A DNA stretch of 64,000 bases. Source: Paramecium tetraurelia. Lineage: Eukaryota; Ciliophora; Oligohymenophorea; Peniculida; Parameciidae. The position numbers were made by a program, and so were the translations under genes. Below the pieces are notes generated by a model. The model worked only from the letters and a program-made list of their open reading frames with translations. It was not told where the DNA came from and made no database searches. Positions 12,163-53,504 of this stretch are shown here, piece after piece; position 1 is the stretch's first letter, and each line of letters starts with the position of its first letter. The stretch covers positions 1 to 64,000 of the forward strand of contig NW_001799222.1 of the NCBI RefSeq assembly GCF_000165425.1, read 5' to 3'.

Positions 12163-14196
12163 TCAATCAAATAATTCATCAAAACTGTATAGAGACAATT
12201 TAATTAATGCGCTATTATCAATGAATGCAATGTGAGCAGCCCTTCCAATCATGGTATCCAAAGATCTACAAATATAAACTACAATACTTTCCGACTAATT
12301 CATAATTCACATCTAATCTATCAATCTTTTAATTAGATAGATTCTTCATGATATTATCGATCATTTTATTGATAATCATGGCATCCTTACTGCTTCCTTT
12401 TGGCCTTTATATTCTAGCTGATTCAAAAGGACTATAAGTATCTTAATAAGAACTCATGAGTGCAATATTTGTAAACCATCCTAAACCCTCATATGTCGAC
12501 AATTTATAGAGGCAAGTCTCGAATGGGTTTGAAGAATCATTCAACGTTAACTAATTTAAGCAAATACATTTTTTCCATTTTCTTATGAACCATAGTCCCG
12601 TATCAACAACCTTACTCGATGATAATGTATAACTTAAGTGAGGACTTCCCAATGACAAGTAGGTAAACATTTTATCTTTATATTTACTCAAATGAGGTAA
12701 TGCCGCTCTAATTATGATTCCTCCAAGTGAATGGCCTATAAAAGACAACTTAGAAAAATTGTCTTTTGGACACCATTCTTTAATCCACCTCTTTACTTCT
12801 AAGGCTAATTTCTCTCCCATTACTAATATGTCCGTATCTGTGTTATCTTCATTACATTTTGACAATAAAGTTAAATGATCAGGATATCTGATGGCCATGT
12901 TGTTTCTCCACAATCTCATATCATATGAGTTCCCTTAATATCCATGTACAAAAACAAGTAAATGAAGCCCTTTTACAGGTTTCAGTTAGAATTCTTATTT
13001 TCTTGACACATCCCTAAACACTATTGGATGAATTTTTGCTTCTGGGAATAAATCTAAATCCTCAATATTTAATGGTTCTAATTATTTGTAATAATTATTA
13101 TTTCTGTATTATTTTGCCATCATTTTATGATTTTTCCCTAGCGAAATATCTGATTATGATAAATCCTCTACTGTTTGAACATGTTAAAAGATGCTCTCTC
13201 CCCATCTCTCTTTTATTTTTTGGGTGTACTCTTGTTCTAAGATTTTGGTCAAAGTATCAGCCATAAAGTTATGTGCATCTATAAACTAATACCAAACAAC
13301 AAAAATTTTGGAGGATGTATGTTTAACCTCTAAAAATAATTAATTACAAAACTCTTCCTATAGTTAAACATTTGCTTTTAGTTCATCCATTCGTGCGCTA
13401 TATTCAGAAAAATCCCTAAAATTTACAGATTTATTCAAGTATTGTAATCGCCCAAATTTATTTTGAATGTGTTCATCTGATATGCATTATTTTACGTTTG
13501 TCTAATAATAGCTTTCAAGTTATTCATGGATTTATAACAATATCTTATTATAGCCTGCATAAAACTCAGATACCAAATTCTGTTTAACTAATAGATATAA
13601 TTCTTGAATTACATTTATTAGTTATGTTGCTCATAAATTATTCAAGAGTAAGATCGTTTTAATGATATTTAAAATCAACTAAAACTGAATGAATGGTTAA
13701 TTTTAATTAGCAAAAATGAGATTCATCAAATTGACATGATACAAACTCTTTTATCAACTTTATATTGTGTAATCTACTTTCAAATTTTGCTACGCATTTT
13801 TAATATTGTTACAATTTATCCTATAATCAAATTTTATTATACTATTTTAAAGTCTTCTTGCGTTATTGTGCTAAGTTCACAAAACAACAGTTCTATAATA
13901 CAATAAATATTATGAGGATCCATTTCAGGATAAGCTTAAACTTCTATTCTAAATACGCAGCCTTCATTTAAATCAACTATTTAATCGCAATATTTAATGA
14001 TGAATGCTTTGCTGTAGAAAGTTGTGTCTAATAGTTTGTGTTATTCAACTAAAATATCATTAACTTAACTCTGGGCAAACTTTTTCTTTTCTACTGTCAT
14101 ATATGGCTATGCATATATTGTTTCAGATTAAGTTTAACTTTTTTAGAATATTGTAGTTTTTTAATTAATATACTCCTTAATGATAAAGGTCGACAT
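12163..14196 (-). CDS. FAM135-type serine hydrolase (DUF676 lipase-like)
   Basis: Spliced length is 656 aa with introns 13821-13842, 13555-13573 and 12266-12287. The C-terminal third is an alpha/beta hydrolase of the DUF676 class: oxyanion-side HLLVFVHGYQGNSYDMRLW, nucleophile elbow FIGHSLGGIIIRAAL, and a late HIAF segment that may supply the histidine. The N-terminal part (YSKAFIIKYCDQIVDLNEG, then HSVLVDFKYH) matches the conserved N-terminal module of FAM135A/B, and the middle is a helical linker. Substrates are unknown for this family in ciliates. ATG 14194-14196 opens the frame. Its stop is 19 nt from the stop of the RCE1-like gene, a tail-to-tail pair. Confidence 0.85.
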
Positions 14197-20495: not shown

Positions 20496-23400
20496 ATGGG
20501 TTGTTGCATTTCATAACAAAGAACCTAAGAAGCAGTTATCTAAACTTAAATTAAAAAGGCTGTTGAAGAACAGGAAGAAATGTCTATTATTGAGGATGTG
20601 GAACAAGAGTTCAATGATATTATTGAATAACCTGAACCAGTGATAAATGATTAAAAAAAAGAAGAACACTTAGCAAAAATTCAAAAAAGCGAAGAGGAAG
20701 AGGATAAGTAAGAAAAAAAATAATTAAAATCAAAAACGACAAAAAGAGATGAAAATTATCTTAAAATTATTGAATACAAAAGCATTAAGATTAATTACTA
20801 CATTCTAACTCCGAAACATGATGAAGTTTCTACATACTACGATTTCATCATAAATACAAGTCATTTAGAATTTTAATATGAGATAAAATGCAAAGCGATT
20901 GTTACTTCTGAACCAGAATAACCATTTTCAATCAAACCATATTCCTATTTGGAAGCATCTTCAAATTCAGGTTACGATATATTTTTTAGAAATGATACTT
21001 ATTTTACAATAGATTAATAATAAAACACTAACAGACAATCTTTTGATACATTGCTAGAAGTGGAAAGAACTCTGAAAAAGAAAAAGGAATAGGCAATTCT
21101 GCCGTAAGCATTTTAACTACGTCAATAGAAATAAGAGGATTCTCAATAAAATTTGAATAGTCCAAGAAGATCACCCAAAAAGCAAAAAGGGAAAATTCAA
21201 ACTGAAGTTGTTTAAGAAATGTTGGAAATAATGCATGTATTCGACCTGGAATTGTGCCCCCGTTTCCATTAGTTATTATTTTTTTTAATGGTATAATAAT
21301 AAATGGCAAAGTTAAAACCTTATTTAGTAAATATATCTGAAGTCTACTTTCTTTTTGATTAGAAACCTTCCTTGGATGAACAATAAGTTTAAAAGGTGGC
21401 AATATTTTATGAATATTTAGACTATAGTTTATAAGAATTCCAAGATTATTTAAAAAAAGAGAAAAAATAATTGTCTCATTTGTTATTCCTGAGATTATCC
21501 TAAGACTTAATATAGATATTTTACAATTGTTACAACTCTTACACATATAGATGTAATTTCACCTTAAAATCAGTCTTTTACACTAGTAAAAATAAAAGAT
21601 TTAGATTATAAGCATTCGCAAGATTATAAACTTTAATAAGATTCTCAAATGAATAGGAAGTCTAATAACTTCTTTAAACAGTTAATGAATAATAGTATAA
21701 ATTCTTTATTAGAGACTTTGAAAAGGATTTTGGGGCTTTGTGTGATCTTATTCTTCTTTTCAAGAATGTTGATAATTAAATCGGAAATATAAAGAAGATT
21801 AGGAGGAAAAAGAAAAATTCAGATCTTCACCATTAGAAATATGCCGAATTTGCTATGAATTTATTAGATTCTGAAAATACAGACAAACTAGTATATGAAT
21901 TGATAAGGTTAAAATGCTAGCCTATCGATAAAGATAATTTTGATTACATTTTAGAGGAGATTAAGACATTACTAATGACTTTAGAATAATAAATTTAAGA
22001 GGAAACCTAATAGAGAGAAAAAATGAATGATTTAAAGGAGTAGATGATTTTTCAAAATGAAAGCATTATTAAAGTAAATAATAGTGAGCAAGTAGGTACT
22101 AATGCAGAAGTGGACAACGAACAACATACGTTTGAAACTCATTTGGCAAAAAAATCGAAAAAGTTAAAAGTTTAACCAAGCGAAAGTGATCTATTTAATG
22201 AAATGAAATACTCAGCCTTATTTTACTTCGAGACATTTATGGAAAGAAGTTAGAAATTCTTAGAAGTATGCACAAATGATGCGCATCGGGCATATGCTCT
22301 TATACTATAATCCATAGGACAAACTATGAATATTCCATCAAGAGAATAAAAATTAGCAGAATAATAATTAATTTTGCAAGAAGCAAGCAAATTAGTGTTA
22401 AAGGAGAGAGTTTTCATAATTTAAGATTCGTTTCATTATTATTTGTTACTAACTCTAATAAGTTCATTGGTTGATAAACCTATTTAATTACTAAATTAAC
22501 TTAAGTTACTTATTCAGTAATAAAATAGCATAAGAAGGAAATAAATAAGGCCTAAATTAAGTACACAACATACATGCACAGGAATAATTGAAATGAGAAA
22601 GGCATTGATCTTGGATCTATTTTACATTGATCATTATCTGAAACGTCATTTATTCTAAAATGCCACTCATTTAGTATAGCATATTGTAACATAATAATTG
22701 CGATTCAATTTAAAATCCTATTTACTCTATGGTCGAAGTCTCTTCATTAGTGGAGTCCTTTGTGAAAAAATGATGTAACCAGTGTCAGCCATGTTGAATT
22801 TAGAAGTCTGTAGACTGCTTTATTAACAATTTTTCCCTGTTTAGAAGTTTATGTATTTGGATGAAGAGACCAACCAATTGGTAGATGTAGAATATTAAGA
22901 AAATAGCAAATAATACAGATAAGTTTTACTTCATTTTGAAAATGAAGGATCAGAAAATTTGAATATTCTTGAATTTAATTTAGGTCTTGTTTATTTTACA
23001 TTGGCTGAAAAAGAGAATGCTTTGAAATGTTTGAGAAAAGTCAAAGAATCGAGAGAAAAGAAGTATGATATAGTTTCTGATGAAGTTTTGGAAGTAGTCT
23101 TGTAAATATTGAAAATACATGTTGAATAAGAAGAAAATGGAGCTGCTTTAGAGATTTGCTAAGAATATTATGCAAAATTTCAATATTTGGCTAAATAGAA
23201 TATTATAACAAAAAGCAGACTCATAGCTCGTTTGTAATTGATCATGGCAGCGATATATGAATGCAATAGGATGTTAGTGAGTGCTTTAAAATATTATCAA
23301 AAAGCTAATAAAACATTTGCAATGTCAAAAAACAATTCTTATGTTAGATAATTGCATATTTTATAGAAAATAAGAAAAATAGTTGAGTAAATTAAATTAA

Positions 23401-24620
23401 AGGCTTATTAATCTCATAGTTTAGAATAGTAATCAGAGTTTAATATTGAACATTATCTTGGTCATCTGTCTGAGAAAGTGAAACCTTACTTTAATAATTA
23501 GTTTATTCGAATGTTAGAAAACGACAGGATAGTTTTATATAATATCACTTTGATGAAAAGGTACATAAGAGCAAACCAAAGCTTAAGAAATTTAGAGTAT
23601 CAATAGGCGTTAAAAAGATATTAAAGAATACATGAAAAATTCAAAAAACAGAAGATTGACGAATGTTATGGATTTACCTTAGAAAAGATTGGTACCATAT
23701 ATTTAATTTAAAGAAATTTAAAAACAGCCATACAACATTTAAAAATGGCATCTGAATTACATGATCGATACTTGTAGTTTCCTTTGAAAGAAATGAGGAT
23801 ATTGACCTGTGAAATATATATATTACTTGGTTAAGCTATGCTAAGGAATAGTAAAGATGTTTAAAAACAATTAACCATTATTGATGACTTTATTTAGAAT
23901 ATCAATGATTTATTGAATTGGTAAAATGTTCCTTATTAATAAAGATCAAATAAATTTGCCATATTATCAAATAAATTAGGTAGATAAGTATTGTATGTGC
24001 TTAATGACCTTTTTGAGAGAGTAGAAAACTATAATACTTTGAGAGTTAAATTTGGATAGAATTTAAATAATGCTTAAGTTTTGAATGCCATTTCAGAGAA
24101 ATTTTTGAATGAGAAATTCAATTAATAATCTGTAAGAAATTCAGACATTTCAAATCAGAGGAAATCATGTCTATTTGGTTTATTCAGTTAGGGAAAAAGG
24201 AGGTAAGCCACTTGGAAAGCAACAATGTCACCAAATTAATAAAGAAATTAATTAAATGAAGTGGTAAGTGGGGAATAAATGGAATTATCAAAAAGTAAAA
24301 TTGAGATTCAGACCGGAAAAGCTAAAGAATAAAGCACAGATAGAGTTGACAAAACTTAGAAAATAAAGATTTAAATTACAATAACAGAGACTGAAAGAGA
24401 TCAATAAATCTAACAGCTTAAAAAAGATAGGCCAGAAATTTATGAGCAATTGTAAGAGTTTGAAATAGATTAAAAAACAAGTTCAAAATTAAAAACATCT
24501 TTACCAGCGACAGCTTTAGTCAGTCCAGTACTCAGTCCCATCAGCATAAAATCACCATCTTAATAAAAATCCTAAGATAAAAAAATAAACCCTTTCCAAA
24601 AAGTCAAAAGAAAGAAATGA
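20496..24620 (+). CDS. Tandem paralogue 1: N-myristoylated pseudokinase-like/TPR protein
   Basis: An uninterrupted 1,374-codon frame with no intron, starting MGCCISQQRTQ. Gly2 followed by Cys3-Cys4 predicts N-myristoylation plus palmitoylation, so attachment to a membrane (inference). A conserved motif DENYLKIIEYK lies near residue 90. Residues about 240-440 resemble a protein-kinase fold with a hinge-like FYEYLDYSLQEFQDYL and a catalytic-loop position reading YRCNFTLKSVFY in place of HRDxKxxN. An activation-segment position reads LQAFARLQ in place of DFG, so a pseudokinase is proposed. Later helical repeats look TPR-like (LGLVYFTLAEKENALKCLRK; ALKYYQKANKTF). The low-complexity tail ends KKINPFQKVKRKK. 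The next paralogue starts 47 nt downstream on the same strand. Confidence 0.85.
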
Positions 24621-24667
24621 ATATTTTGACTAATTTAATATATATTATTATTACATATATAAAATAT

Positions 24668-27600
24668 ATGGGTATATGTTTTGGAGCCAAGAAGAATGAT
24701 CGTTATGCAATTATTTAAAAACAAATCAATAACACTGTAAAGGAATAAGAAGATATGTAAATTTAAGAAGAATTGGCATATTAAAATAAACAATTACTTG
24801 ATGAGGAAGAGATAACACTGAAGATTAACACATAAACTTAACTAATAGTTTCTAAAGATCTAAATGAAACGGCCAGTTAATAGATCATTGAATAAAAGGC
24901 TTCTACTAAAAAGAAAAGGAAGAAAAAAACTAAAGATGAAAATTATCTCAAACAAATAGAGTATCATATAACACTTAAATCTATTATTATTGAAGAAGAA
25001 TAAGATCAGACTTAGTCATAATATAATATAATAATGGTACTAGAATATATGGGTTATTGTCATAATGTCTAATTAAAAGGTGTTTTAATTAATCACCCAA
25101 AGAAAACGTTTCAACTAATTCCAAATACCTATGAGGATGCTGCTAAGCATTCGAGATTCTCTCCTTTTTTTTAAAATGACTTTTACTTTAACATCAACGC
25201 TGATCCCTTACATAATACTAATTATTTCGAGAAATTATTACATGTGGAAAGAACTGTGACAATAGATAGACAGATCAGAATATCACCTACCAAAAGATTT
25301 TCTAGACGATCATCTTCTGTTTTAGATGAACACCAAAGTCCATCCCCTTTAAAAAAGAGATAAAATGTAAAAAAATCTGAATTTGTAAGTGAATTACTTG
25401 AAGTTGTATAAGTTTTTGATTTGGAAGCCTAGCCTAGATTTCTTTAAATATTATTTGCCCTATTATTGAAAGAATAATTACCTTAAATTAGTAATAACTT
25501 TGTGTACATTGAAGAGTTGATTTTTTTATTTGATTAATTGCCTAAAATGGAATAGCCCAATGTGTACAGAATTGGCATTTTCTATGAGAGTCTTGATTAT
25601 AATCTTCATGATCTGCTTGTTTATATGAAACATGAAGAGGTTAAATTGTCCCAAATTTGCTTTCTAAAATTAGCACACAATTTAATTTAAGCTTTATATA
25701 ATTGCTATTCAAATCATTGTTATAGAATCAATTTCACTTTATCCACAATATTTTACACAAAACGATTCAAAAAATTTAAGATCTAATCTTTTTGCAGAAT
25801 GTAAAGTCTAATACCATTTGAAGGAGATCAGTAGCTTAACCTAAAAAATGTCCCTGAACAAAAACTTAAGTTTTTTATCAGATCTTTTAAAAAGGATTTT
25901 GCTGCCTTATGTGATTTAATTTTATACTTCAAAGATGTCAATAAACCATTAGACAGTATCCAATATCTTCGTAAATAAGCTAAAACAAATAACTCTCCTG
26001 AATATTTAAAATATGCAGAAATTACTTTTGAAAAAGAATACGAGAAGACTTTGGTTGAAGTAATTAGATTTAGTTTAGATGAGATCTAATACGAAAAATT
26101 GAATGAGTACTTACTTTCAATTTATTTATAGATTATTATGTGACTTGAAAGACACTACAATTAATTTAGAATAAATCATTGCCGAATTAGAATTAAGAAG
26201 TGAAACAGATAAAAAATTATAGAAAGAAAACCAAAATTTCTAAATGTACGATTAGTCAAATAGCGAGAGAGATGAATTTATAACAGAAATAGAAAATCTT
26301 GACTTAATTTAATAAATGAATTCACTCCCAGAATTCAATAAATCTCAAAAAGTAACAACTCTTAAATGCTTGTACAAAGAATTACTATATTCTTCCCTCT
26401 TTATGAATTATCGTTTCTAACAAAATTGTATATCCTATCAATAGAATAGCTCAGATACCCTACATGCTGTTCATTCTAATATTTTATAATCTTTTTAATC
26501 AATAGATTTCAATGAATCACATTATGAAGCATCGCTTAATGAATAAGCAAAAAACCTTTAACCTTCTATCGATTAAGCAGTAGCCCATCCTATTGACCGA
26601 TAAGATCCATTTCATTATTATGTTTTGATAAATCTCTTAACATTATCTCATGATCGACCATTTTCTTTGATTATTCAACTGTAAAAGTTGATCGAAGCAT
26701 AATAGAAGATAAAAAAGGAATTGGTAAAACCAAAGTTGAAATAAAATCATGCTCCTGGAGGATTGATTGAAATGAGAAAGACAATAGTTCTTCAAGTGTT
26801 CTACACAGAAAACTTAATCAGTAGACATAATTATTCTTAAGCAATCCATTATATGTAAAAAATAATTACATTGCAGTAAAAATTAAATCAAAAGCACTCT
26901 CTACTTTACGCGTATTGTTTATTTTTGAATGGGTAATTATGCGCTAAAACCATGTAAACGATTTCTGCAATGCTCAATTTAGAAATGTGTAAACAATTTT
27001 ACGATTTGTATTTTCCATCTTCAATAATTATTCCAGAAAAAACTATTGAACCTAAATAACCGTAATAATAAAATTAAAAATAAGAAAATCAATAAGTTCA
27101 GCCAACAAAACCATAACTTGTAATTAAGGAAGTAGATAATTTATCAACAACCAACTAATCAGTTTTAGAATTTAGCTTGGGATAGATGTACTCCTAATTA
27201 AACGATTAAGAAAATGCGCTGAAATGTTTGAAAAGAGCTCAAGCTATAAGAGAAAAGAGATTTGAATAATTCTCTGACTAAGTGATTGAAATTACTCTAG
27301 AAATTCTACGAGTTTATGTGGAGTAAGAAGAAAGTGGGGCCGTTGCTAAATTATGTTGTCAATTAGCTGCGAAGATGAATGAAAAATATAAACATAAAGA
27401 AGTTTTAAAAACTAAAAATGTTGGAATACTTCAATTAATTATGGCTGTGATATACGAAAGCAACGGAGTTTTGGTTAGTTCTCTCAGATTCTATCAGCGA
27501 GCTTTAAAAACATTTTAAGGTTCAAGATCAAATAATTACATAAGATAATTATACATTAGTGATAAAATTAAAGGAATTATAGAAAGAATAAAATAGATAG

Positions 27601-29087
27601 CCACACAAACTATTTCAATGGATAAACAATGTATTAATCAACTTAATAATCTCAAGGGCTTTCTAAGTATTTCTGATATTCTTAAGCCTTACTTTTCAAA
27701 TTCTTATTATTAAAATCAAAAATAAACAAACACTATAAATCAGAACATTGTATCTTCTTTGGTTTATGCTAATGGCTATTTAAATAACTACGAATTAATA
27801 GATGCACTTACTAGATATTAGGCTACTCACAAAATCTATAAGAAATAAAGGATTGACGAGTGTTTTGGAATTGTATTAGAAAAACTTGGTTTAATTAATA
27901 TTTACCAAAAAAAATACGATTAAGGAATTCAATTTATGAAATTAGCCTTGGAAATTCATGAAAGGTATTTATTGTTCCCAATGAAGTAATGTAATATTAT
28001 CAAAATAAACCTTTACATTTTATTAGATATGGCCTAAAAGAATTAATAGAAAAAAATTCTTGATTAATTTGATGTAATAGAGAAATTCATTGAGCAAATT
28101 TATGAAGATATCCATTGGAATTTGACTCCTGAAGTAGCTTCTCGAATCAACAAATTTAAAGTGATGTCAGCTAAAATTGGTTCTAAGGCTTTGCATTAGA
28201 TTTTAGAACTTATTCATAATATAGATCTGTATTATAATGTAAAGAAACTGTTGTATGAAAACTTCGCAGATCCTCAATAACTCTAAGAATAAGCTTAATT
28301 ATATTTATCAAAAAAATTAATATAGATGAGCAACAAAAAAAGACAACACTGGCTAGAAAAAAGAACGAGATGTTAGATTGGTTAATTGGCAAAAGTTCAT
28401 ATTATCTAACGAAAAAGAGTTACCAGTATGTTTTCTTGTAATGAGGCGAAGAAGGTTGATGAGTAGACAAAAAGTAGAATAACACAAAACTCTACACTTG
28501 TTGACTAAACAAATGAGAAAATACAAAAAAATTAATTATCTTCAGTTGATGAATCCAAAGAAACTGCATTGCCAAATAATAAAATTTTGATAGATTTAAG
28601 GTCTGCTGAAGAAATTTTGGAAGAGCAGAGATAACGTTAACTAGAATTACTGCAACAGCGAAAACTGCGTTTAATTAGAAATTTGAGCCAATCCAATGAG
28701 TTCAATTTTTAAAATCAGTAAAGCTAAAATGGTTCTTTCATTATTTAAAGATAAAGCCAAATGATGTAATTTAATCAGATGAAGTAAATTTTGTAAAATT
28801 AGTAATAATAAGTTGAATATTAAAAATCTAATCCAATCAAAGATAATCAACAGCAATCAATATCTACTTCAAAAATTTTATAGCCAATTAAAGCAGGAGG
28901 AAGACAAAAGAAGTCATTGTCATAACCTGGGGTTGATCAAGATTAATTGAAGAATTCATATATAAAATTGGCTGATGAAGGTTTGACTAATAAGAGAAGG
29001 AGAACTATCAGTTAACAAAGTTTGGCATCAATTTCATAAGTAAAACGAAAAATTAATCCTTTTGAAAAATCGGTTAAAAAAAAATGA
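24668..29087 (+). CDS. Tandem paralogue 2: N-myristoylated pseudokinase-like/TPR protein
   Basis: One 25-nt intron (26107-26131) joins a 1,464-aa frame. The start MGICFGAKKNDR keeps Gly2 and Cys4. The same landmarks occur in the same order as in paralogue 1: KDENYLKQIEYH, LLHVERT, the kinase-like hinge FYESLDYNLHDLLVYM, the catalytic-loop position YRINFTLSTIFY and the DFG position KIQSFCRM. The block LIEMRKTIVLQVFY, ISAMLNLEMCKQFYDLYF and the TPR-like ENALKCLKRAQAIREKR follow. The extended C-terminal region is Gln/Ser-rich and ends RKINPFEKSVKKK. It sits between the other two copies, 47 nt after the first and 170 nt before the third, so the array arose by local duplication. The degenerate catalytic residues argue against kinase activity. 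Confidence 0.85.
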
Positions 29088-29257
29088 TTATTTATTTTAT
29101 TATTTAAATTTTCAATAATGTCTCGTATCTTCCCAAACAACAATACTTTATTCAACTGTATGAATTCTCTCAAGTTTTACAACATAAAATATTAAATACT
29201 CAAAACTTATTACATAAATCATTATTAATCTTCAATAAGAATTGTATATATAAAATA

Positions 29258-32200
29258 ATGGGTGTATGCTGTTCTAAATAAAGAGATAGAGAAGATGGAA
29301 TAAGATAATAAATCGCATAGACGGTAGTGGAATAATAAAAAATAAAAGAAGAAGAAGAATAAGAACAGATTTAATTTTAGTGTTATTCATCAAGCAGAAA
29401 GTCATAAACTTTTCAAATTAACCCAACTAATCCAAATGAAATCTGCAATTTAGTGACTCAAGTTGGAAACGAGGATGTAGCAGTCGATGTTGACTAACCA
29501 AAATTGGATAAAATCAAAAGGAAAAAATCAGAGCATCATAAAGACGATGCAAACTACTTAAGAAAATTAGATCACATTTTATCAATTAAATCAATTGTGG
29601 TCGAAGTGCAAAAGGAAGGAGATATGAAATATTACAAAATTTCCACACTTATTAACTATAAAGAACTTTGTTATAATGTTAATCTGTATGGTACCTTAAC
29701 AACACAATTAGATTTTAAATATTTCACTTTAAAGCCTAGGAGATTTGAGGAGGCTCATAAATATTCAAGGTTTCTCACTTTTTTTTCAAATGACAATTAC
29801 TTCAATGCAGATAAGGAATGCACAAATAATTTTAATGCATTTGATAAATTATTATATGTTGAGAGGAGCCAGCAAGAATTGAAGGCGAATATGAAAAGAT
29901 TACAAAAGAGGCAGAGCACGATTATACATGAAAAACTGGCTGAAACATGTTTGATAAATTCAACCAATCAAGAAATGTTAGAAATTATCTCAGTTGTTGA
30001 TATTGAATAATAATCCAGATTTTTGACAGTTCTGTTTCACTTGCTGGTTTAAAAATATTTTAAAAAATTAGAACTTTATTTAGTATTTATAACAAATGCC
30101 ACTTTCTTATTTGAAGTACCTCCCTAATTTGATTAACCAACTGTATACAGATTAGCTTTATTTTATGATAAGTTAGATTACTCTTTAAAAGATTTATAAA
30201 ATATGTGTCTGAAGAACCAAATGGAATTATCTAAGATTTTATATCAAAAATTGGCACTTAACCTTATCGATATCTTTTATTAATGTTATTCAAACTATTT
30301 ATATAGGTTGAATTTCACATTGTCAACAATATTTTATGTTTCTAAATTTAAGATGTTTAAGTTGTAAACTTTTGGAAGGCTTAAGTACTTGCTATAATTC
30401 GGAATGAATGTAGATGATGGTATCAAATTATTAGATGAAAAGAAAATGAGGTTATTTTAAAAAGCATTCAAAAAAGATCTTTTAGCCTTATGTGATCTAT
30501 TAGTATATTTTAAAAAGATTAATAATTTATCTTTGAAACAAATTCAAACTCAAAGGAAAAAGTTTGTCTAAAGTATTAAAAAAGGTGAAGAGCAGGATGA
30601 AGATACTAATTATTTAATTTACATTGATAAGATTTTGTCATCCACATCCGATCGATATATCTTAGAATTTATTCGTATGGCAATCTACGCAAATGAAATT
30701 AAATAAACAGACAAAACTTTACAAGATACTTTGCCAATAATTGAGTCTCTACAAAAATCTATCAATGAATATGAATCCAATCTAGAACTATAAGGCAAAG
30801 ATTCTCAATAATAAAATGAAATCTAACTTTATGACAATCCTCGCTTAGAATCCTAATAATAGAAAGAAATAGAATCAGAAGGCTCATTAGAATTTAAGGA
30901 TGACCAAAAATTGTTAACGACCTTTTAATTTGATTTTAATTCTGAAAATGAGGAATTCTCTCTCAATAAAGATAAATTCAATGAGGCATAATTAGTTTAT
31001 AAAGAACTACTTTATTAATCATTATTATTTTAGGATTAATTTTATTCATGTTATCAAAAATTTTAGGTGTGTGGGAAATCGAAATTAGAGGAAGCATATG
31101 TTGAAGTATTATATGCATTTTATACATTAAAATCTATGAATGATGAGTCTTGGTAATATAAATTAAAAGTTCTATCAAAATTGATGAATAAACCAATCGA
31201 AATTATGAATTAAATTTATGAAACCAGCATTGATCATTTCCATATTACTATCATCTTTCAGATACTCACATTATCTCAGAGAAAACCACTGCCCTTATTG
31301 AATGAATTTCAACGAAGTATCAATAAATAATTAGCAATGAAAATGCAAATGGATAAAAGATTAAGAAGTCACAATTCCTCAAGAGGCATAATTGAATAGA
31401 AAAAACATATAATGGTTTAACTAATGTATGCCCAATCCTATTTAGCCAGTCATAACTATTATTAAGCAGTACACAAAATACAAAAAGTGATTGGATTTTA
31501 ATTAAAAAATTAGCATTTGGCTTCGTTATTTTATGGATATTCTCTATTAGTTAGTGGAGAGATACAAAAAGAAAGTCTATAAGCAGTATCAGCAATGCTC
31601 AATTTAGAAATGAGTCAGGTGATATATGATGGTTATTTCCCAGAATTCATAACATTAGAAGAAACCCAAGATCAAGCAGAAAATGGAGTAAAAGAGAAAA
31701 CTACTTAAAAATATGAATACCTAAAAGTCTAAAATTTAGCAACCAGCAATAAGGCTAAATTGGAATTGTTATTAGGAATGAGTTACTTTGATGTGCATGA
31801 TTAAGAGAACTCATTGAAATGTTTAAAAATGGCTGAAATATTGTTACTAAGATCATTTGACATGTATGCAGATGAAGTTGTAACTGTTGTATTAAAACAG
31901 TTGTAACTATTTGTATTATAAGATGACATAGGATCAGCCTTCAAAATAACACTTTCTTATGCAGAAAAAATGAACTAATATTATATAGAAGGAAAAACAT
32001 TTAAAAGAAAAATCATTTCTAAGTTGTAGTTTATAATGGCATGCATTTTTGAATTTAATGGATTATTTTTAAGTGCTCTTCGATATATCGAGAGATCTAA
32101 TCGTACTTATACTAATTCTAAATGCAACAACTTTATCATTTAAATGCATTTTTAGGCTAAGAAATTGAGTTTAATATCAAAAATCAAAGCGGCATTCTAA

Positions 32201-33370
32201 AAAATCAAAAATAAACAGTAATTAAGAGATCCCACTGATTTAGCCTTATTTTCAACTCTAAATGAACATATGGCCCCTACTTTCCTTTCACAATTTTATA
32301 GGCAAAGATTTGTCTAAAAGTCCTCTTTACTTCTTGAAAAATATGGGTTATATTTGATTAAGGTTTAATAATTGCAGAGACTCAAAATGAATCAAAAAGC
32401 ACTCAAAATATTGAAAAAGATTGTTAAGATTTTAAATAAAACTAAAAAGGATGAGTTATACGCTATCTTGTCTGGTTATGTAACTTATCTGAATCTTGAA
32501 AATTCTAAAAAACCACAATAGATTAAATATTTACTTGAATAAATAGAAATTAATGAAAGATATTTTCTCTTCCCATTTAAAGAATTTCACTTATTAAAAT
32601 GTTTAATTTATCTCATTATTCTCTATACAAAAATGAATTAAGCAAAATCAATTCAAGAAACCAATGTGAAAATTCAAATGATAATTGATGAATTTCTTGA
32701 AAGTCTCTAATGGAAATCCATTTCAACTAAATCTCTTAAAAATGCCCCTAATAAATTTGAGATATTCCTCAAAAAAGGTAGGATTTCTTTATTGTATCAA
32801 ATCTCTGCTGTTGTTGAAATAATTGAATATTATCACACTTTAAAGAAGTAAATATTTGATGCTATGTTCAATGGAATGCAATTGGTGCAACTCTATAAAA
32901 AAATCAGAGTTGATTTTGAACAGTTTATGATTGATATCAATAGTCAAATATTATTTTAGAAGTAAAATTGTATGTTTGGATATTACTCCTAAATAAAGTA
33001 TCAAAATTATGAACCATCAGTAGAGCACAAAAATGATAATAAAGTTTAAGAAACTGTAGTTCTTTAGTCATAGCAAGAAAAAGATACAGATACAAATTTA
33101 TAGAAAACTGACACATCTAAAATTGTTTTTGACATTAGAAGTTATTAAGAGATATTGATCTCTAACAAATAGACACGTTTGTCAAAATAACAACTATTGA
33201 GCAAAACAGAACCTAAAAATAAGGATATTAGTTTTGAAAACATCTCAGGAAAACATGAGAAACAAAAATCAACAAATTATACTGATTAATTGAGAGTGAA
33301 GAGTATTAAAAAGTCTACTAAATTAAATCCATTTGAAAGCACGATGAAAAAAACTCAAAAATATCTTTGA
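29258..33370 (+). CDS. Tandem paralogue 3: N-myristoylated pseudokinase-like/TPR protein
   Basis: A single uninterrupted frame of 1,370 aa. It begins MGVCCSKQRDRED, again Gly2 with Cys4-Cys5, a dual-acylation-type N-terminus. Conserved landmarks: DDANYLRKLDH, LLYVERS, the kinase-like hinge FYDKLDYSLKDLQ, the catalytic-loop position YRLNFTLSTIFY, and the activation-segment position KLQTFGRL, where only Phe-Gly of DFG remains. The AMLNLEMSQVIYDGYFPE block and the TPR-like motif DQENSLKCLKMAEILL follow. The tail ends KSTKLNPFES. This copy keeps the best residual kinase signature, so it is the best starting point for a structure search. The gene is followed by about 760 nt without a supported gene. 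Confidence 0.85.
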
Positions 33371-42785: not shown

Positions 42786-45700
42786 TCATTTAGATTCTAG
42801 TCTTCTTGCAGTATTTTCTTCCAACCAGCGAATGAAAGATTTGTCCTAATATCTTCCGAATATTTCTTTATGAAAGTATGATTCTGCTGCAACCAAAGCA
42901 GCCTATTAATACTCTTCAAATACTTTTGGATCAGTACAATCCATTTATGCCATACTCTCTTTGTAATTTATAAATCAAATATATACCTTAAAGATCATAC
43001 TCTGGAATTATTCTGAGGTATTTTCCTTCATGTCTTTTGAGTTCAAGATCCACAAAATCTTGATTACTTTCACCAAAAGCATCTATTATCTTCCCGACAC
43101 TCAATAACCCTTCATCAACTTGTAGTTGTTACTTCTACTTGGCCACTCCAGTTGAGAGACTTAAAAGGAAGAAATTGTCCTAATCTCTATTCAACATACA
43201 CTTTCTGAGGTCTTCCAAAACAAAATTGGATGGGTTGTTGACTCCTATACCCCCATCAATAAATTGATACTCTTTTCCTGCTAAAGATTTGATTTAGGCA
43301 GCAGGAAAATAGGTTGGTGCAGCTGAAGTGGCTCTTCCTACATCCTTCATTAAGAAATTCTCTGTAAGATCAACTTTGGCTTTCCTTGAACTAAATACTT
43401 TAGCAACTGTCTCTCCTCTCTGCTTTTGTAATTTGACAGCTGTAACTATCACATTTGTATTTTAAATGGTTTCACTCAACTTCACAGTTCCGCAATGTCT
43501 AGATAATACATTCTCTATCCCCTTGGCATCATACTTAGATTTACTCATGATATTCCAAACCCCTCTCTTTGAATCCTCAAATATTGTCTTCCCTTCCTCA
43601 GTGAATAGCTTGATCAAACCATCCTTATCTACTAATGAACTCTAACCATCTTTAGTCCCAGCCATAGTTAAGGCCAACATCCCTCCAATAGATGTGCCTC
43701 CAATGCTATCGAACAATTGATATGGCTCTTTCTTCATCTAAGTACACAAGTAATTCAAGATAGTTGCTGGTAACAATCCTCTCATTCCTCCTCCATCCAA
43801 AGACAACCCAGTATAACTGTAATCTGAGACATCTATCCTCAGAGTGTCTTATTTAACAAACTTCTCACTTAACATAGTTTCCTTTTGTTCTTTCTTCTCT
43901 CTAAAGTAGTTTATTTTGGACATTCCTAATTTATAATAGGTTCTCTGCTTTAATTCCTAATCCAAAATATGTAAATCAAAGAACAATACGGTTTAACTAC
44001 CTTGATAGAGTTTAGTTAAGAGTCTCAGAGAATCATCATCAATTGTTGGAAGAGTGATTGAAAGTGTAATTAATTTATCAAATAGATAAGAGATCTCTTT
44101 CTTAAAGCTTTTCAAAGTCAAATCTAAATATTATAAGGTTTAACTTTTAATCAACTCTTCAAACATTAAATTTGAATCTATGGTTTCATTTTAAAAGAAT
44201 AATTGACTCAAAGATTTGTTCTAACCAATCGATTTAGAGAGTTCCTGAGTAGTTTCTGGATTAAACTTGTTTCTTCTCAAATCCAATGCTTACAAATTGT
44301 AACTCTAACATAAGAATTTACAAAATGATGATATGTCTTAATCTATTTAAAAACAATTCTATAATGTTAAATTCTTCAAATAGATCATCTAATTTTCCTT
44401 ATTTTACCATTGTTGCTATTCCAATTTCGCTAGCAATTCAAATTTAGCATTTCCAACACTATTATGACTCAAATTCAAAGAATTGAGAGGAGTCTTTACA
44501 ACCTTATCTGATAAGGCCTATTCAAATAAGTGGTTTAAACCTTAACTTGTAATCTAATTCCTACTCAGATCTATGTATCTCAGATTCTCACATTCCCAAA
44601 ATTACTTACTTATGGATATCAACATATTATCATCTATTCCTGCATTGCTCAAATTCAAATGTTGAATATTAATCACACTGAATGTACCTTCATTAAATAT
44701 CTCGTATAAATTGTCTACAGTCAAACTATTCCCTGAGAAATCCAAGGATGGAAAATGTAGGTATTTATCTGATTGTTTCAAATTTGAGAGGTACTTTTCA
44801 ATGATTGAACTCTTAATCATTTTCAAATTAGCAAAACTCACCTTTATGAACTATTTATAATAGGATATCTATTGCAACAATTAAATTATCTTTTCCAAAA
44901 CAGATTCACTCGCACTTGGAATTGTTATCCATTCAATATTCTATAAGAATTACTTCACTGTCTAATTCACTAAGTATTACTCTCTACCTATACTACTCTC
45001 GATTATTGAAGAAAGATCAATTAAAAATTAATCCAAGAATTTTCGTTTATCTTCACTTTTATGACAAATCAAGGATTGCAATTCTAAAGTGTTGATAAAT
45101 TAATTCTTAAATAAACATTGAAATATCCCAAAAATGTACACTTTCTTGCCTTTATCATCAAGTTATTTGGATAAAAATGTTAAAAACTAACTTTGTTAAT
45201 CTTCAATTACAATTCCACTTTTCACCAAGTAAGTTGGCAGTGGGGATCTTGAATTTTAATCAGTAAATAGAAATTTTTCATAGATATCACCCAATAACGA
45301 GAACATAAACTCCACATATGTTTTTTAGAACGAGGACTCCTCTTCATTAACCTTAATGATTTTCTTATTTGCTAACTGTTTGAAAGCCCCATTTGATGTG
45401 ATATCATCAAAGATTACTTATATTCCTTATAACATCCACATCTCTACTATCTCTTGCTATAGTTATTTGCTCCCTTTCGCCTAAATCTTATTTAATTGAT
45501 TGATCGTATAGACTTATGTTAATTAGGGACAATTATTCACATTCAAATTCTGCAGGAATTACCCACTCATTTCAATTGATTTTATGTTTGGTAACTCTGA
45601 AGCCAATAGAGTCTTCAATCTCAAAAATTGTAATTTCTTTTAGACTCCTAATTGAATTAATCCAGCACACCCACTGATATTCAATACATGCAATTCACTG

Positions 45701-48700
45701 CATTTATAACAAATCTCATTAATAAAACTATCTGTAATTGTATCAATATATGAAATATTTAATATCTTAATTCTTATTAATTCAAATTGCATGAATATTT
45801 ACGAGAATTATCTATACGATAAACAACTAAAGTTTACATATTCAAAAGGTTAATTGTAATCTTATGAATATTTTAGTAGACTTTCTAGCATTACTGAGAC
45901 TTGTGATTCCTTCAGATTCCTCCAATCGGTTGAATTTATTAATAATTAAAAGTGATTTGGTTTCTTTATGATTTGTAACTTTTTACTGAAATCCTCTACT
46001 TCAGTCAACAGTCTCGTGTACTTTAACACCATCTTCAAACCTTTTGATGGCCCAATTGAATTTTTTAATTGGAAACTGGAAGGATACTTGGAAAATGAAA
46101 AGGATTCTCTAAAAGAAATAAAATCTTGTCTAGTCAAACAAATAGGTAAGGTACTTGAGAGTTCATTGAATTTTTATATCAAATTTAATGAGCTATTGTT
46201 TATAAGAGTTTGATAATATTCTCCTAAATTTGGATCACATTGTTTAAGCAGATCTAAATAGGTTATGTTCTATTTGGCTTATTAGATTAAAGTTGCACGA
46301 TGTATCAAAGCAATCATGTTTTCTTTGTTAAGTGGCAAAATTAAGATAGACTGTGTCTTATCGACCTTTAAATCGAGCTAACTTAATTGTTTCAACCATT
46401 ATTGCAAAATGATAGTTAAATTTGAAAATGCGCTTAAATATTTTGGATCTATCTTTTCATTCATAAACTGTGTGAGAAAATAGATGTTTTTACAACATAA
46501 ATTGATTTTATCACCCTCTCTCTCAAATCCACAAATATTTATTAAATTGTCGTGTTTTGGATCAAAATAAAAGTTTGTTGTAACAGGAGCAAAGTAATTT
46601 CCACAAGGTACTAGCAATTCTTAGTCAGGAGTAATGTTAGTAGGGAGTAGAAGAATGCTCAATAGGATTTTGTATGCTAAATTCTAGGAACCTATTTTGT
46701 TTATTAAATTTGATTCATTGAAGTGATGATGTAACATATATTGAGCTATTGTAAATCTAATCCTTTATCCTTCAATCATCGTGTTGATCACTTCATAAAT
46801 GGAGTAAATTTAACCCTTATGAGTGGCCAATTCAACCTTGGAGATAAATTAATCTAATGAGATCAATTTATAAAGAGATATGGCCATATATTTTTAGAGT
46901 GGGAAGTTGGGTTGCATGAACAGGAGAGAATTATCCTTCACATTAAGCAATGCGAAATGTTTATCAAAATTTTGATTGATTATCGTATTCAAATTGACTT
47001 CTAAGTAATTAGGCAAATCTTATCTGTTATCCAAAAGGTTATTGTTGAAAATACACTCATATTATTGACTTGTAAAATGGACTGACCCTTTGTATAGTAT
47101 TTAGAATTCATATTATCCACTTTGTTTTGTCATCTGAGTCCAAAAGTAGTTCCATCCCAAACTCCCCAATAGATGGGGATAATATTTTTCAACACCTTCG
47201 AAGACTTGATTATGAAACTTTTATAATTAATCGTCATCTTCTAATAAATAATCAAAGAAGTTGTTTCTTATTTTTCTATTATTTTCTATTGATAGCAATT
47301 TCAAAAATAAATTAAACTTTTTATGTTTAAGTGAGCTTTCAGCAATTGAAAGTTGTCCTAAACCAACAATGTTATGCATCTTCTTATTCATCAAATACAA
47401 TATTATTTTATTGCATTACTCATCTGTTTAATCGATTCCTGAGATTGATTCAAATAAATTCAAATTCAATTCTTGAAATTTGTTGCCTAAAAATTGAATT
47501 GCTAATAATTCAACAAGGAAAGTATTTTTAAATTATGAACTTGATTGTGCATATTAATAATTAGCTTGAAATGCTTACTTCCATAATTCATAATCAAACC
47601 ATGACTTATTAAAATTTCGTATGACAGGATCATAAATTTCATCTTAATGATTTTTAAATTATGTATCTAAATTGTAAAAGTTTGTATATGCCAAATAATC
47701 TATGAGCTTGATTCTATTGATTAAACTGATATCATAATTGATATTCAATTTTTAGAAAAATTCTATTACTGTGAAAGATGGCGACTTCAACACTTGTTTA
47801 TTCTGTTTATCCACCTCCTACTTTAATTCTCTCAATTGATTATTGTACTTAATCAGCAAATACCCATCAACGAGTTTGTGCATAACTTCTTCTAAATTTA
47901 ACTTATTTATAAAGTCTTCATACTCAGTTAATTTTTATAGTTTGCTCGTCTCCAACCGCATGAATTGGAAAAACAAAGGGTTCAATAATTGAGTGATCTA
48001 TATTAATTTTACATTGTAATTTTACGGAAATATTACTTCCTAAATGTAAATAAATGTATCTTCCATCTTCTTGACTCGTTTATAAGTGATGGAAATAACT
48101 TCTTCGCTGATTTACATTGATTTAATTCTATCCTGATTTGTTTTAGAATGATAATTGAAATCAAAAATTTATGTTTCTGCAAGGAAATCAAGAAATTTGA
48201 GAAATGCTGCAAATATATCCTTTGGTTTGATTGCATTGAATTCTTGTAAGTCGTAGGAGGCTTCAAAGATATCTTTCTTAAAATGAAATAACGGATTTTT
48301 AAATTGCTCATATTGTGTAATTTATTATTGCATAGCATTTCCATAGAAGGCTTATAAAGTGCCAAAGTATTTTGGGACTAAGTGATCCAAATGATCGGAA
48401 ACAAAAAGGGATAAATAATGTTTAGCAAATTCGTTTTTGTTTATGTTTAATTCAGACTCGTCTTTAATTTGGGTTACGAAATAGTATTAATATCGTTTTG
48501 GTTTATTTGTAAGGGTCAATCGGATGACAAAGCCAGGGGGTAGATCGAGGCCAAAAAGTTCAGATCTCAAAACATATGACAGCAGATATCTTTGATAGTA
48601 GAACACTTAACTTATTCTGGTCATGTGAAAGCCTTCTTTTTGCAATTATTATATGAAATTTTCATCCTAATTTAAAATAAGGGTTGCCATCTCTTTAGAT

Positions 48701-49227
48701 ATATTGTTGGGCTAATTTAGTGGAGATTTCATTTAGACTTACTCTTCAAATTACTTAATTTGCTTTAACAGATTGATTTATTATTCAATGATTTTCAATT
48801 ATTGATGTATTCCTGAATAGGGATGAATAAATTAAGACATGCAGATTAAATCATTTACTTCTTAAGTTAGGATTTCCAATAATCTATCTCTGGATAATCT
48901 TCCAATTTATGGAGAATTAGTGGGCAAATAATTGGATTATAAATGTTATTTTTTAAGTTTTTTAATAAAATCAGCCAATTTTCTAAAATACTTCATTTCA
49001 TTATATTCAACTGTTATACCTCTATCATTTTCAATGCTGAGAAAAGAGTAGTTTTCTTCTGATAATTAATTTAAATATTGATTTTCTTATTCCTAAATAT
49101 TGTCACCATATTGTAAATTGAGTTGTTATAGATATTACTTGAGTTTGATTCTACATGTAGCAAATTCATCAGGCTTGGCATTCAATTTTTAATAGAACTC
49201 ATTAACAAACTTTTGTAATTTTTCCAT
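42786..49227 (-). CDS. Giant LRR-patatin phospholipase-like protein, about 2,130 aa
   Basis: Reading from MEKLQKFVNEFYQKLN (ATG 49225-49227) to TGA 42786-42788 gives roughly 2,130 aa. One clear intron lies near 42962-42989. The first about 1,000 residues form a helical region of unknown family. The middle (about 45,900-44,050) carries leucine-rich repeats such as LNLSNAGIDDNMLISISK, LRYIDLSRNQITSQGL and LQALDLRRNKFNPE. The C-terminal catalytic unit is patatin-like: glycine-rich loop SLDGGGMRGLLPATI, nucleophile elbow GGTSIGGMLAL (Gly-x-Ser-x-Gly), and the Asp of the dyad in FIDGGIGVNNPS. Patatins hydrolyse fatty-acyl esters of phospholipids. The catalytic Ser and Asp are both present, so activity is likely (inference). 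Other introns may exist that I have not placed. Confidence 0.85.
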
Positions 49228-51278: not shown

Positions 51279-53504
51279 TCATTTTTCATCTTCTGACACA
51301 TTCTCTTTACCTATAATTTGTTAATTTATAGGATTTTTGGTGCCTCCCTTCAAACATTTGTATATCTTTTTGTTTTGTCTAAATGAAGAATTGACCTCAG
51401 ATGTATCCAACATGGAATTCTTTTCCAATCTCTGTAATTCTTTTAACTAATCATATTTCACAAACAACTTCTGATTTTCTACGCTAAGTCTGTTTACCTC
51501 TTCTGATAATTTCTAATTGATATTAAATAATAAAAGTACAAAGATTTTGAGTTGTCTATCATCAATCAATTTCTTTAGTTTCTGACATTCTCTTTAATAC
51601 TTTTATTTCTCATTAATCACTTGATGCACTCCTTCCAACATTTTCTCTATGTTATTATTTAACTCTTTGCATTTCTCATCATAATTCCTATTATCTATTT
51701 CAATATTCGTCATTCATACTTTTAGCCAATTAATTCTCTAATTTTAATGACTTTGCTTTTTCTGCATCTAAAAGCTGTTAAGTCTTTTCCAAAGTTTCTA
51801 AGAGTTCTTATTGACTGCTATTGTCAGTCTGCAATTCCAAATTCTATTTCTTTAATTGAGCTACTTACGTATGTAACTCAGCCAATTAATCATCTACATA
51901 AATATTAATGATTACTTTGAATATTGAATTCCTTTTTATCGTCTGTTAAGAAGGCCATTAATTATTCATTCAATTAATCCTTGTGATGTTTCTTATATAA
52001 ATAGGTAATCTATTTTAATTTAGAAGTGACTCTCTCCTTCACAAAGTTGTCAATGAGAGTCAAAACCTAATCATCCTCAAAGATGTCTTTCTCTCCATTT
52101 TGACCAAGCTTTTAAGACAAAGTTCTTTGGATATTAGACAGCTTCTTTTAATAGTCAGTCTCCATCCTCAGATACTGATGTTCATAATCCTAAATCTCTA
52201 TTAATGATATTATCCTAATAATTACTTTCTTGCATTTCATCCTCTTTTATTCTCAATTAGTTTCTTAATTCTATTTCCTTCTATTAACTGATAAATTGAG
52301 CCTATTTAAACATCTCTATTTCTTACTCGTACTTAGCCATTATCTATTACATTTATAATAACTATTCACTATTATTTGGAATATCAGAATTAAAATCCTC
52401 CTATATATCCTTCAAAATCTCCTTATCTTCTTCACTAATCACAATGCCTTTTTTGAATTATGATAATTGCTCCTACAATACCAATATTTCTCTTTCCTTC
52501 TCTTAGACAATCATCTTCAATTCTTCCACAGTATGTTCCTTATTTATTTTTGGCTTGTTCTTGATTGCCTTTGCTCTAACTCCGAATCTCAAAGTAGAGA
52601 GAGTCTCCTGCAAATTAAATTGAGCAGGAGAACATGTTATAATAAGTGTAGTTCTACTGTTACCACCAAAAGAACACTGCAATATTCTTGTTAATTTTGA
52701 ATCTCTGTATGGCACATGTTAACTTCCATCTGTAAGTGCATTAATCACCTAACCTAAGGCTGACAATGACTTGTTGATCCCCTTGGCTTCATCCAAGATT
52801 TTCCCCTCTGCTCCTGTTTTAGACACCTTTTCACTACCCGCCAAATCTACCAAAAATAGTTTGCCTGTTTTGGCAGACTAATCTCTTAAGTCTATAGATT
52901 AAACTGTCATTAAAAATATCATGTGTGATCGAGATGACTATTCATTCATATTAGTGCTTGCTATCATTCGATTAGCATTGCACATCTTCAATATATCATA
53001 TATTTCTGATTAATCAGCTATTGATGTTTCAGTTACTCCTTCTATGTATGTTGAATGATTTTTATCCTCTCTTATTTTCAGATCTGTTTTCTTGATGTTT
53101 TACAAGTCTCTCACTTTTTCCATGTATAACTCTGTCACTGATATTTTTATTCGGTACTCTACATAATCGGGACTGGCTTCAATATAATCAAACACTGTAT
53201 TGACCATTCTTTTTATTATTCCTTAATCATCTCCAGTCGTCCCTTCCATCGTATGGGTCTTTCCAGATCCAGTTTAGCCATAAGCTACCACAGTCCCATT
53301 GAATCCCTCTAAGACTCCTTAAATTACTGGCTCTGCTGCCACCTTAAATACATCAATTTATTTTCCTGGATGGAATATATGATCGAAATTGAATTGTTGG
53401 TTTTCTATGAGAACACTTCTTTCATCTGCGAAGTAGATTTAGCTTTCAACCTATCCAGGGATGGGAGGTCTAAATCGACATATCACTTGAATATTTGTAG
53501 TCAT
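51279..53504 (-). CDS. Kinesin-1-like motor protein
   Basis: The N-terminal motor starts [14 protein letters not shown]. It shows the P-loop [15 protein letters not shown], switch [12 protein letters not shown], switch [16 protein letters not shown], and the family hallmark [19 protein letters not shown] followed by [20 protein letters not shown]. The neck begins [19 protein letters not shown], the neck-linker sequence pattern of conventional kinesin (kinesin-1). A long coiled-coil stalk follows. The tail ends with KICKC-like basic sequence and KENVSEDEK at TGA 51279-51281. About 700 aa after splicing, shorter than animal kinesin-1 heavy chain (about 960 aa). Plus-end-directed transport on microtubules is the expected role. 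Light-chain binding cannot be judged. Several short introns are likely in the stalk that I did not place individually. Confidence 0.88.

Follow-up and report, generated by a model that had tools for sequence, protein, structure and literature searches.

The stretch analysed here, hereafter the window, comprises 64,000 nucleotides of Paramecium tetraurelia (contig NW_001799222.1, positions 1 to 64,000) and carries three adjacent genes, g1, g2 and g3, which by sequence comparison are full-length tandem paralogues with about 30-35% identity along their length. Gene calls under code 6 (the ciliate code, table 6), with TAA and TAG read as sense, placed g1 at 20496..24620 (1374 amino acids, a single open frame), g2 at 24668..29087 (1464 amino acids; exons 24668-26106 and 26132-29087) and g3 at 29258..33370 (1370 amino acids, a single open frame), all on the + strand, as are all features of the trio given below, with spacers of 47 nucleotides between g1 and g2 and 170 nucleotides between g2 and g3. 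The intron of g2, at 26107..26131, is 25 nucleotides long, lies in phase 2 and reads GTACTT...TAG. A preliminary description of this DNA had reported this tandem trio with these lengths and spacers, two genes without introns and one with a single 25-nucleotide intron, all of which was reproduced; it had also called the proteins giant, and while sizes of 1370-1464 amino acids hold, we judge this wording generous. Pairwise alignment gave 34% identity over 1327 amino acids for g1 and g2 (E 0.0), 32% over 1154 amino acids for g2 and g3 (E 4e-157), and 30% over 696 plus 34% over 361 amino acids for g1 and g3. The MG(C/I/V)C starts named earlier were seen as MGCC in g1, MGIC in g2 and MGVC in g3, and those of g2 and g3 are likely because the in-frame ATGs upstream of them overlap the stop codon of the preceding gene. 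The DENYLK-type motif was likewise found, the N-Y of DENYLK/DANYLR being present in the trio.

Searching the genome assembly (69 Mb, 231 contigs) with g1, g3 and the N-half and C-half of g2 as protein queries, we found at least nine family members, a lower bound, and no other matches; every N-half match was paired with a C-half match. Besides the trio, the family includes two tandem genes, C72a (C72:51975-56149, with a probable late intron) and C72b (C72:56334-60488), as well as C160b (C160:219173-223270), C160c (C160:267008-271305, in two frames), C175a (C175:268806-272849, - strand) and C175b (C175:378092-382366), the ohnologue of g3. A run of N inside the open frame of this ohnologue (C175:377912-382366) is probably an assembly gap. 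C160c has a candidate intron of 23 nucleotides in phase 2, whose place appears by eye to match that of the g2 intron. In the family tree, rooted at the midpoint for drawing only, g1 grouped with C72a and g3 with C175b (100/100 each), g2 joined g1/C72a with 83/88, and a second large clade (100/100) held C72b, the C160b/C175a pair and g3/C175b, the order inside it being open; C160c, entered as a rough join, formed a long branch. Because the C72 pair holds one g1-type and one g3-type gene, the array may well be old, although about 10 kb of flank on each side of that pair gave no further match to the window. Contig C175, from ~374.9 kb to at least 391 kb, is an ohnologous block of window positions 17218-42556 (17.2-42 kb), with matching neighbours (upstream gene 87%, coiled-coil 61-67%, Kelch 83%, eIF3c 94%), and further upstream C175:365-374.9 kb yielded a single weak match to the window. 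The block keeps one trio-type gene, the g3 copy C175b, so that loss of g1 and g2 after the duplication would be the simplest account; tblastn found no convincing relic of g1 or g2 between the neighbour gene in C175 and C175b (best E 0.44). By all signs the assembly looks like a macronuclear genome of the Paramecium aurelia group: several contigs (e.g. C10, C15, C50 and C231) have G4T2-type repeats close to or at their ends, TAA and TAG are sense codons, and the 25-nucleotide intron and ohnologous blocks are present. Outside this genome, no relatives were found in prokaryote and virus contig collections, which, because of what they hold, are silent on other ciliates. We conclude that the trio represents maintained duplicates within a conserved ciliate family.

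The N-termini carry predicted acylation signals, MGCCISQ in g1 (20496..20516), MGICFGA in g2 (24668..24688) and MGVCCSK in g3 (29258..29278), each fitting a PROSITE PS00008-type myristoylation pattern. Starts of this type and a Cys at positions 3-5 were both found in 9/9 members, so the dual-acylation-type N-termini proposed earlier are borne out at the level of motif, and the genome contains NMT_C matches at four places. Also proposed was a kinase-like middle without catalytic residues. This core spans residues 238-440 of g1 (21207..21815), 237-440 of g2 (25376..25987) and 241-440 of g3 (29978..30577), and reads YRCN, YRIN and YRLN, respectively, at the HRD-like place and AFA, SFC and TFG at the DFG-like place. 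If this register is right, the position of the HRD aspartate is L, I or C and that of the DFG aspartate S, T or A in 9/9 members. The distances between kinase-like landmarks, constant or nearly so in 9/9 members, all differed from the values for Paramecium kinases by no more than 3 residues: 46 from hinge to R (44-46 in 10 of the 12 measurable kinases), 22 from R to F (19-20 in 12/12) and 35-37 from F to D (35-38 in 10/12).

Following the core, g2 carries a TPR half (26132..28349) in which TPR_12, TPR_8 and TPR_2 exceed their Pfam cut-offs (34.5 bits vs 30.1, 28.9 vs 25.7 and 28.2 vs 27). The corresponding half of g1 (22113..24215, about residues 540-1240) is TPR-like, its best matches, TPR_1 at 827-849 and TPR_12 at 1033-1088, being sub-threshold, and that of g3 (30830..33010) is homologous to the g2 half, g3 scanned whole giving no Pfam match; the repeats ascribed to all three proteins are thus clear by Pfam in g2, sub-threshold in g1 and without a Pfam match in g3. 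A TPR model was matched at E<=0.01 in 3 of the 10 family rows scanned whole, and TPR_2 at the same level in 4/8 C-halves, while a PDB search with the TPR half gave no match in one run and one ribosomal S15 chain (E 0.024) in another. An NPF near the C-terminus, reported earlier, was found in the trio as INPF/LNPF: g1 ends in KINPFQKVKRKK (motif at 24588..24596), g2 in KINPFEKSVKKK (29055..29063) and g3 in KLNPFESTMKKTQKYL (33326..33334). NPF starts 9-15 residues from the C-terminus in 9/9 members, against a chance expectation of ~0.001 per protein for the last 20 amino acids (the members not being independent), and in 7/9 it is single and followed by basic residues. The ohnologue pair C175a and C160b has a second, internal NPF ~550 residues from the C-terminus. 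EH domains (PF12763) gave 13 matches in the genome, at four places two close together, as in Eps15-like proteins.

Estimates of the ratio of nonsynonymous to synonymous substitution (dN/dS; NG86 under code 6) are rough because dS was above 1.2. For whole genes they were 0.143 in g3/C175b and 0.067 in C160b/C175a. Splitting g3/C175b, the one pair so treated, into segments with boundaries of our own choosing revealed constraint that differs along the protein: residues 1-30 gave 0.046 on few sites, the core (residues 241-440) 0.061, the lowest measurable value among large segments, the TPR half 0.131, the linkers 0.20-0.27, the tail before NPF (residues 1246-1350) 0.43 at 35% identity, and the last 20 residues, including NPF, 0.21 with 75% identical. 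In a beta-rich stretch (residues 91-205, 79% identity) synonymous sites were saturated and dN/dS was not measurable.

Whether the core is a pseudokinase depends on how its landmarks are weighed against the homology searches. Two AlphaFold models, both of low confidence, weakly resemble a kinase N-lobe over the core, the matches ending at a hinge-like position; with model 2, 46 of the 50 VIA-align matches listed are kinases by title, and with model 1, all 18 that cover the same core among the 50 matches listed are kinases by title and chain length. Several results weigh against a kinase fold. Foldseek gave no significant match; no Pfam kinase (PF07714/PF00069) matched to E 5 in the trio or E 10 in the nine N-halves (HMMER filters discard most matches above ~0.1); phmmer and hmmsearch against PDB found no kinase homology of the core; hhalign of the nine cores with the 12 Paramecium kinases returned a probability of 1.3%; and with hmmsearch --max, controlled by reversed sequences and 40 shuffles of each of 10 sequences, the best real match reached 2.1 bits, outside the core, and the best shuffle 7.2 bits. 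Kinase homology detectable by sequence was accordingly rejected, Pfam, phmmer, hmmsearch and hhalign all being negative. A custom profile-profile alignment (25 shuffles per setting) with a strict gap cost recovered the expected kinase register at a score of 13.7 (z 1.55; best shuffle 15.5), and two looser gap settings gave z 1.63 and 1.62 with a different register. The core could instead have another alpha/beta fold within an acyl-anchored TPR scaffold, its YRxN and xFx motifs being coincidental. The negative sequence tests, the low confidence of the models and the R-to-F distance of 22 all speak for this; however, in 9/9 members the remaining landmark distances are as in kinases, kinases dominate the VIA matches listed over the core and these end at the hinge-like position, and no large segment with a measurable dN/dS scores lower than the core, the beta-rich stretch not being measurable. 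We consider such a non-kinase fold somewhat unlikely. A pseudokinase fold is plausible, not proven, as suggested by landmark spacing and the two low-confidence models.

Our explanation, held tentatively and at a little short of an even chance, is that the family consists of Paramecium acyl-anchored pseudokinase-TPR adaptors recruiting EH-domain proteins via NPF. N-myristoylation of Gly2 and palmitoylation of Cys3-5 would anchor the protein to a membrane; the kinase-like core, without the HRD and DFG aspartates, would not catalyse but bind partners or act as a switch; the TPR half may bind clients or sister copies (dimerisation); and the C-terminal NPF would capture EH-domain proteins of the Eps15 or EHD type and so connect the complex with membranes of endocytosis or recycling. 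The endocytic suggestion is made only by analogy with the Eps15-like protein and AGFG at the K13 complex of Toxoplasma (in passages of PMC10105704). The cortex or cilium suggested as location by the preliminary description found no support in our data, and NPF together with the EH domains encoded in the genome would fit sites of endocytosis or recycling as well. The broader proposal, that the acyl anchor-pseudokinase-TPR layout of the plant BSK proteins arose independently in ciliates, with an NPF tail added, and that the resulting membrane pseudokinase adaptors organise endocytic machinery with EH domains at the surface of the alveolate cell, seems to us rather unlikely. Alternatively, membrane-bound pseudokinase-TPR dimers might couple a receptor to cytosolic signalling as BSKs do, NPF serving only the scaffold's own trafficking; the order of parts is that of BSK3, whose myristoylation, TPR-aided dimers and scaffold role are published (portions of PMC6336344). 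We regard this as improbable, however, as the family gives no RLK/Pelle-type kinase signal (PF07714) and has no known upstream receptor. Structural proteins of the cortex or basal body, acyl-bound to the alveolar or ciliary membrane and lacking EH or signalling partners, are more doubtful still: many ciliate TPR proteins are cytoskeletal and g2 has a sub-threshold MIT match (17.5 bits vs 30), but NPF is kept in 9/9 members beside a fast-evolving tail.

Elsewhere in the window, a 2098-amino-acid open frame (42931-49227, - strand) carries a patatin-like phospholipase domain in its C-terminal part (PF01734, E 6e-22), along with a leucine-rich repeat match below threshold, and a kinesin motor domain exon lies at 52182-53504 on the - strand (PF00225, E 9e-107). 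Upstream of the trio, a DUF676 serine esterase-like gene (12218-13390, - strand; PF05057, E 1.4e-33) shows weak overlaps with PGAP1 and palmitoyl-thioesterase.

That no described family has this layout, as had been claimed, is too strong a statement, since plant BSKs (RLCK-XII) join an N-myristoylated N-terminus, a kinase domain of uncertain activity and C-terminal TPRs in a plasma-membrane scaffold (portions of PMC6336344). According to the same portions, BSK3 depends on myristoylation to be located at the plasma membrane, forms dimers to which its TPRs contribute and is regarded by the authors as a scaffold, and BSK8 is called a pseudokinase in a title cited there. The layout is thus already known in outline from plants, and the family itself was not met in our literature search, which covered titles and abstract starts, with subscription papers and preprints outside its coverage. 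BSK proteins are ~490 amino acids long, whereas the Paramecium proteins, at ~1400, have a far longer TPR half, possess in addition a beta-rich N-terminal stretch and the NPF tail, and contain a core that is matched by no kinase hidden Markov model. We do not file the family as BSK because no receptor-like-kinase (RLK)-type kinase domain is detectable, and the shared layout is probably convergent. With NPF-type EH ligands such as AGFG/Hrb the family shares the NPF tripeptide; unlike AGFG/Hrb, it has a single C-terminal NPF in 7/9 members and its members gave no Arf-GAP match in a Pfam scan, EH binding being predicted. In Toxoplasma, the K13 complex includes a two-EH Eps15-like protein and AGFG, in which NPF motifs are noted, and K13 is apparently absent in ciliates (both in passages of PMC10105704). 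To MLKL-type pseudokinases the Paramecium family has no significant sequence or fold match. If the core is truly a pseudokinase, then in a lineage for which little is known of how cortical endocytosis is organised, the myristoyl-pseudokinase-TPR scaffold familiar from plants would have arisen a second time, apparently independently.
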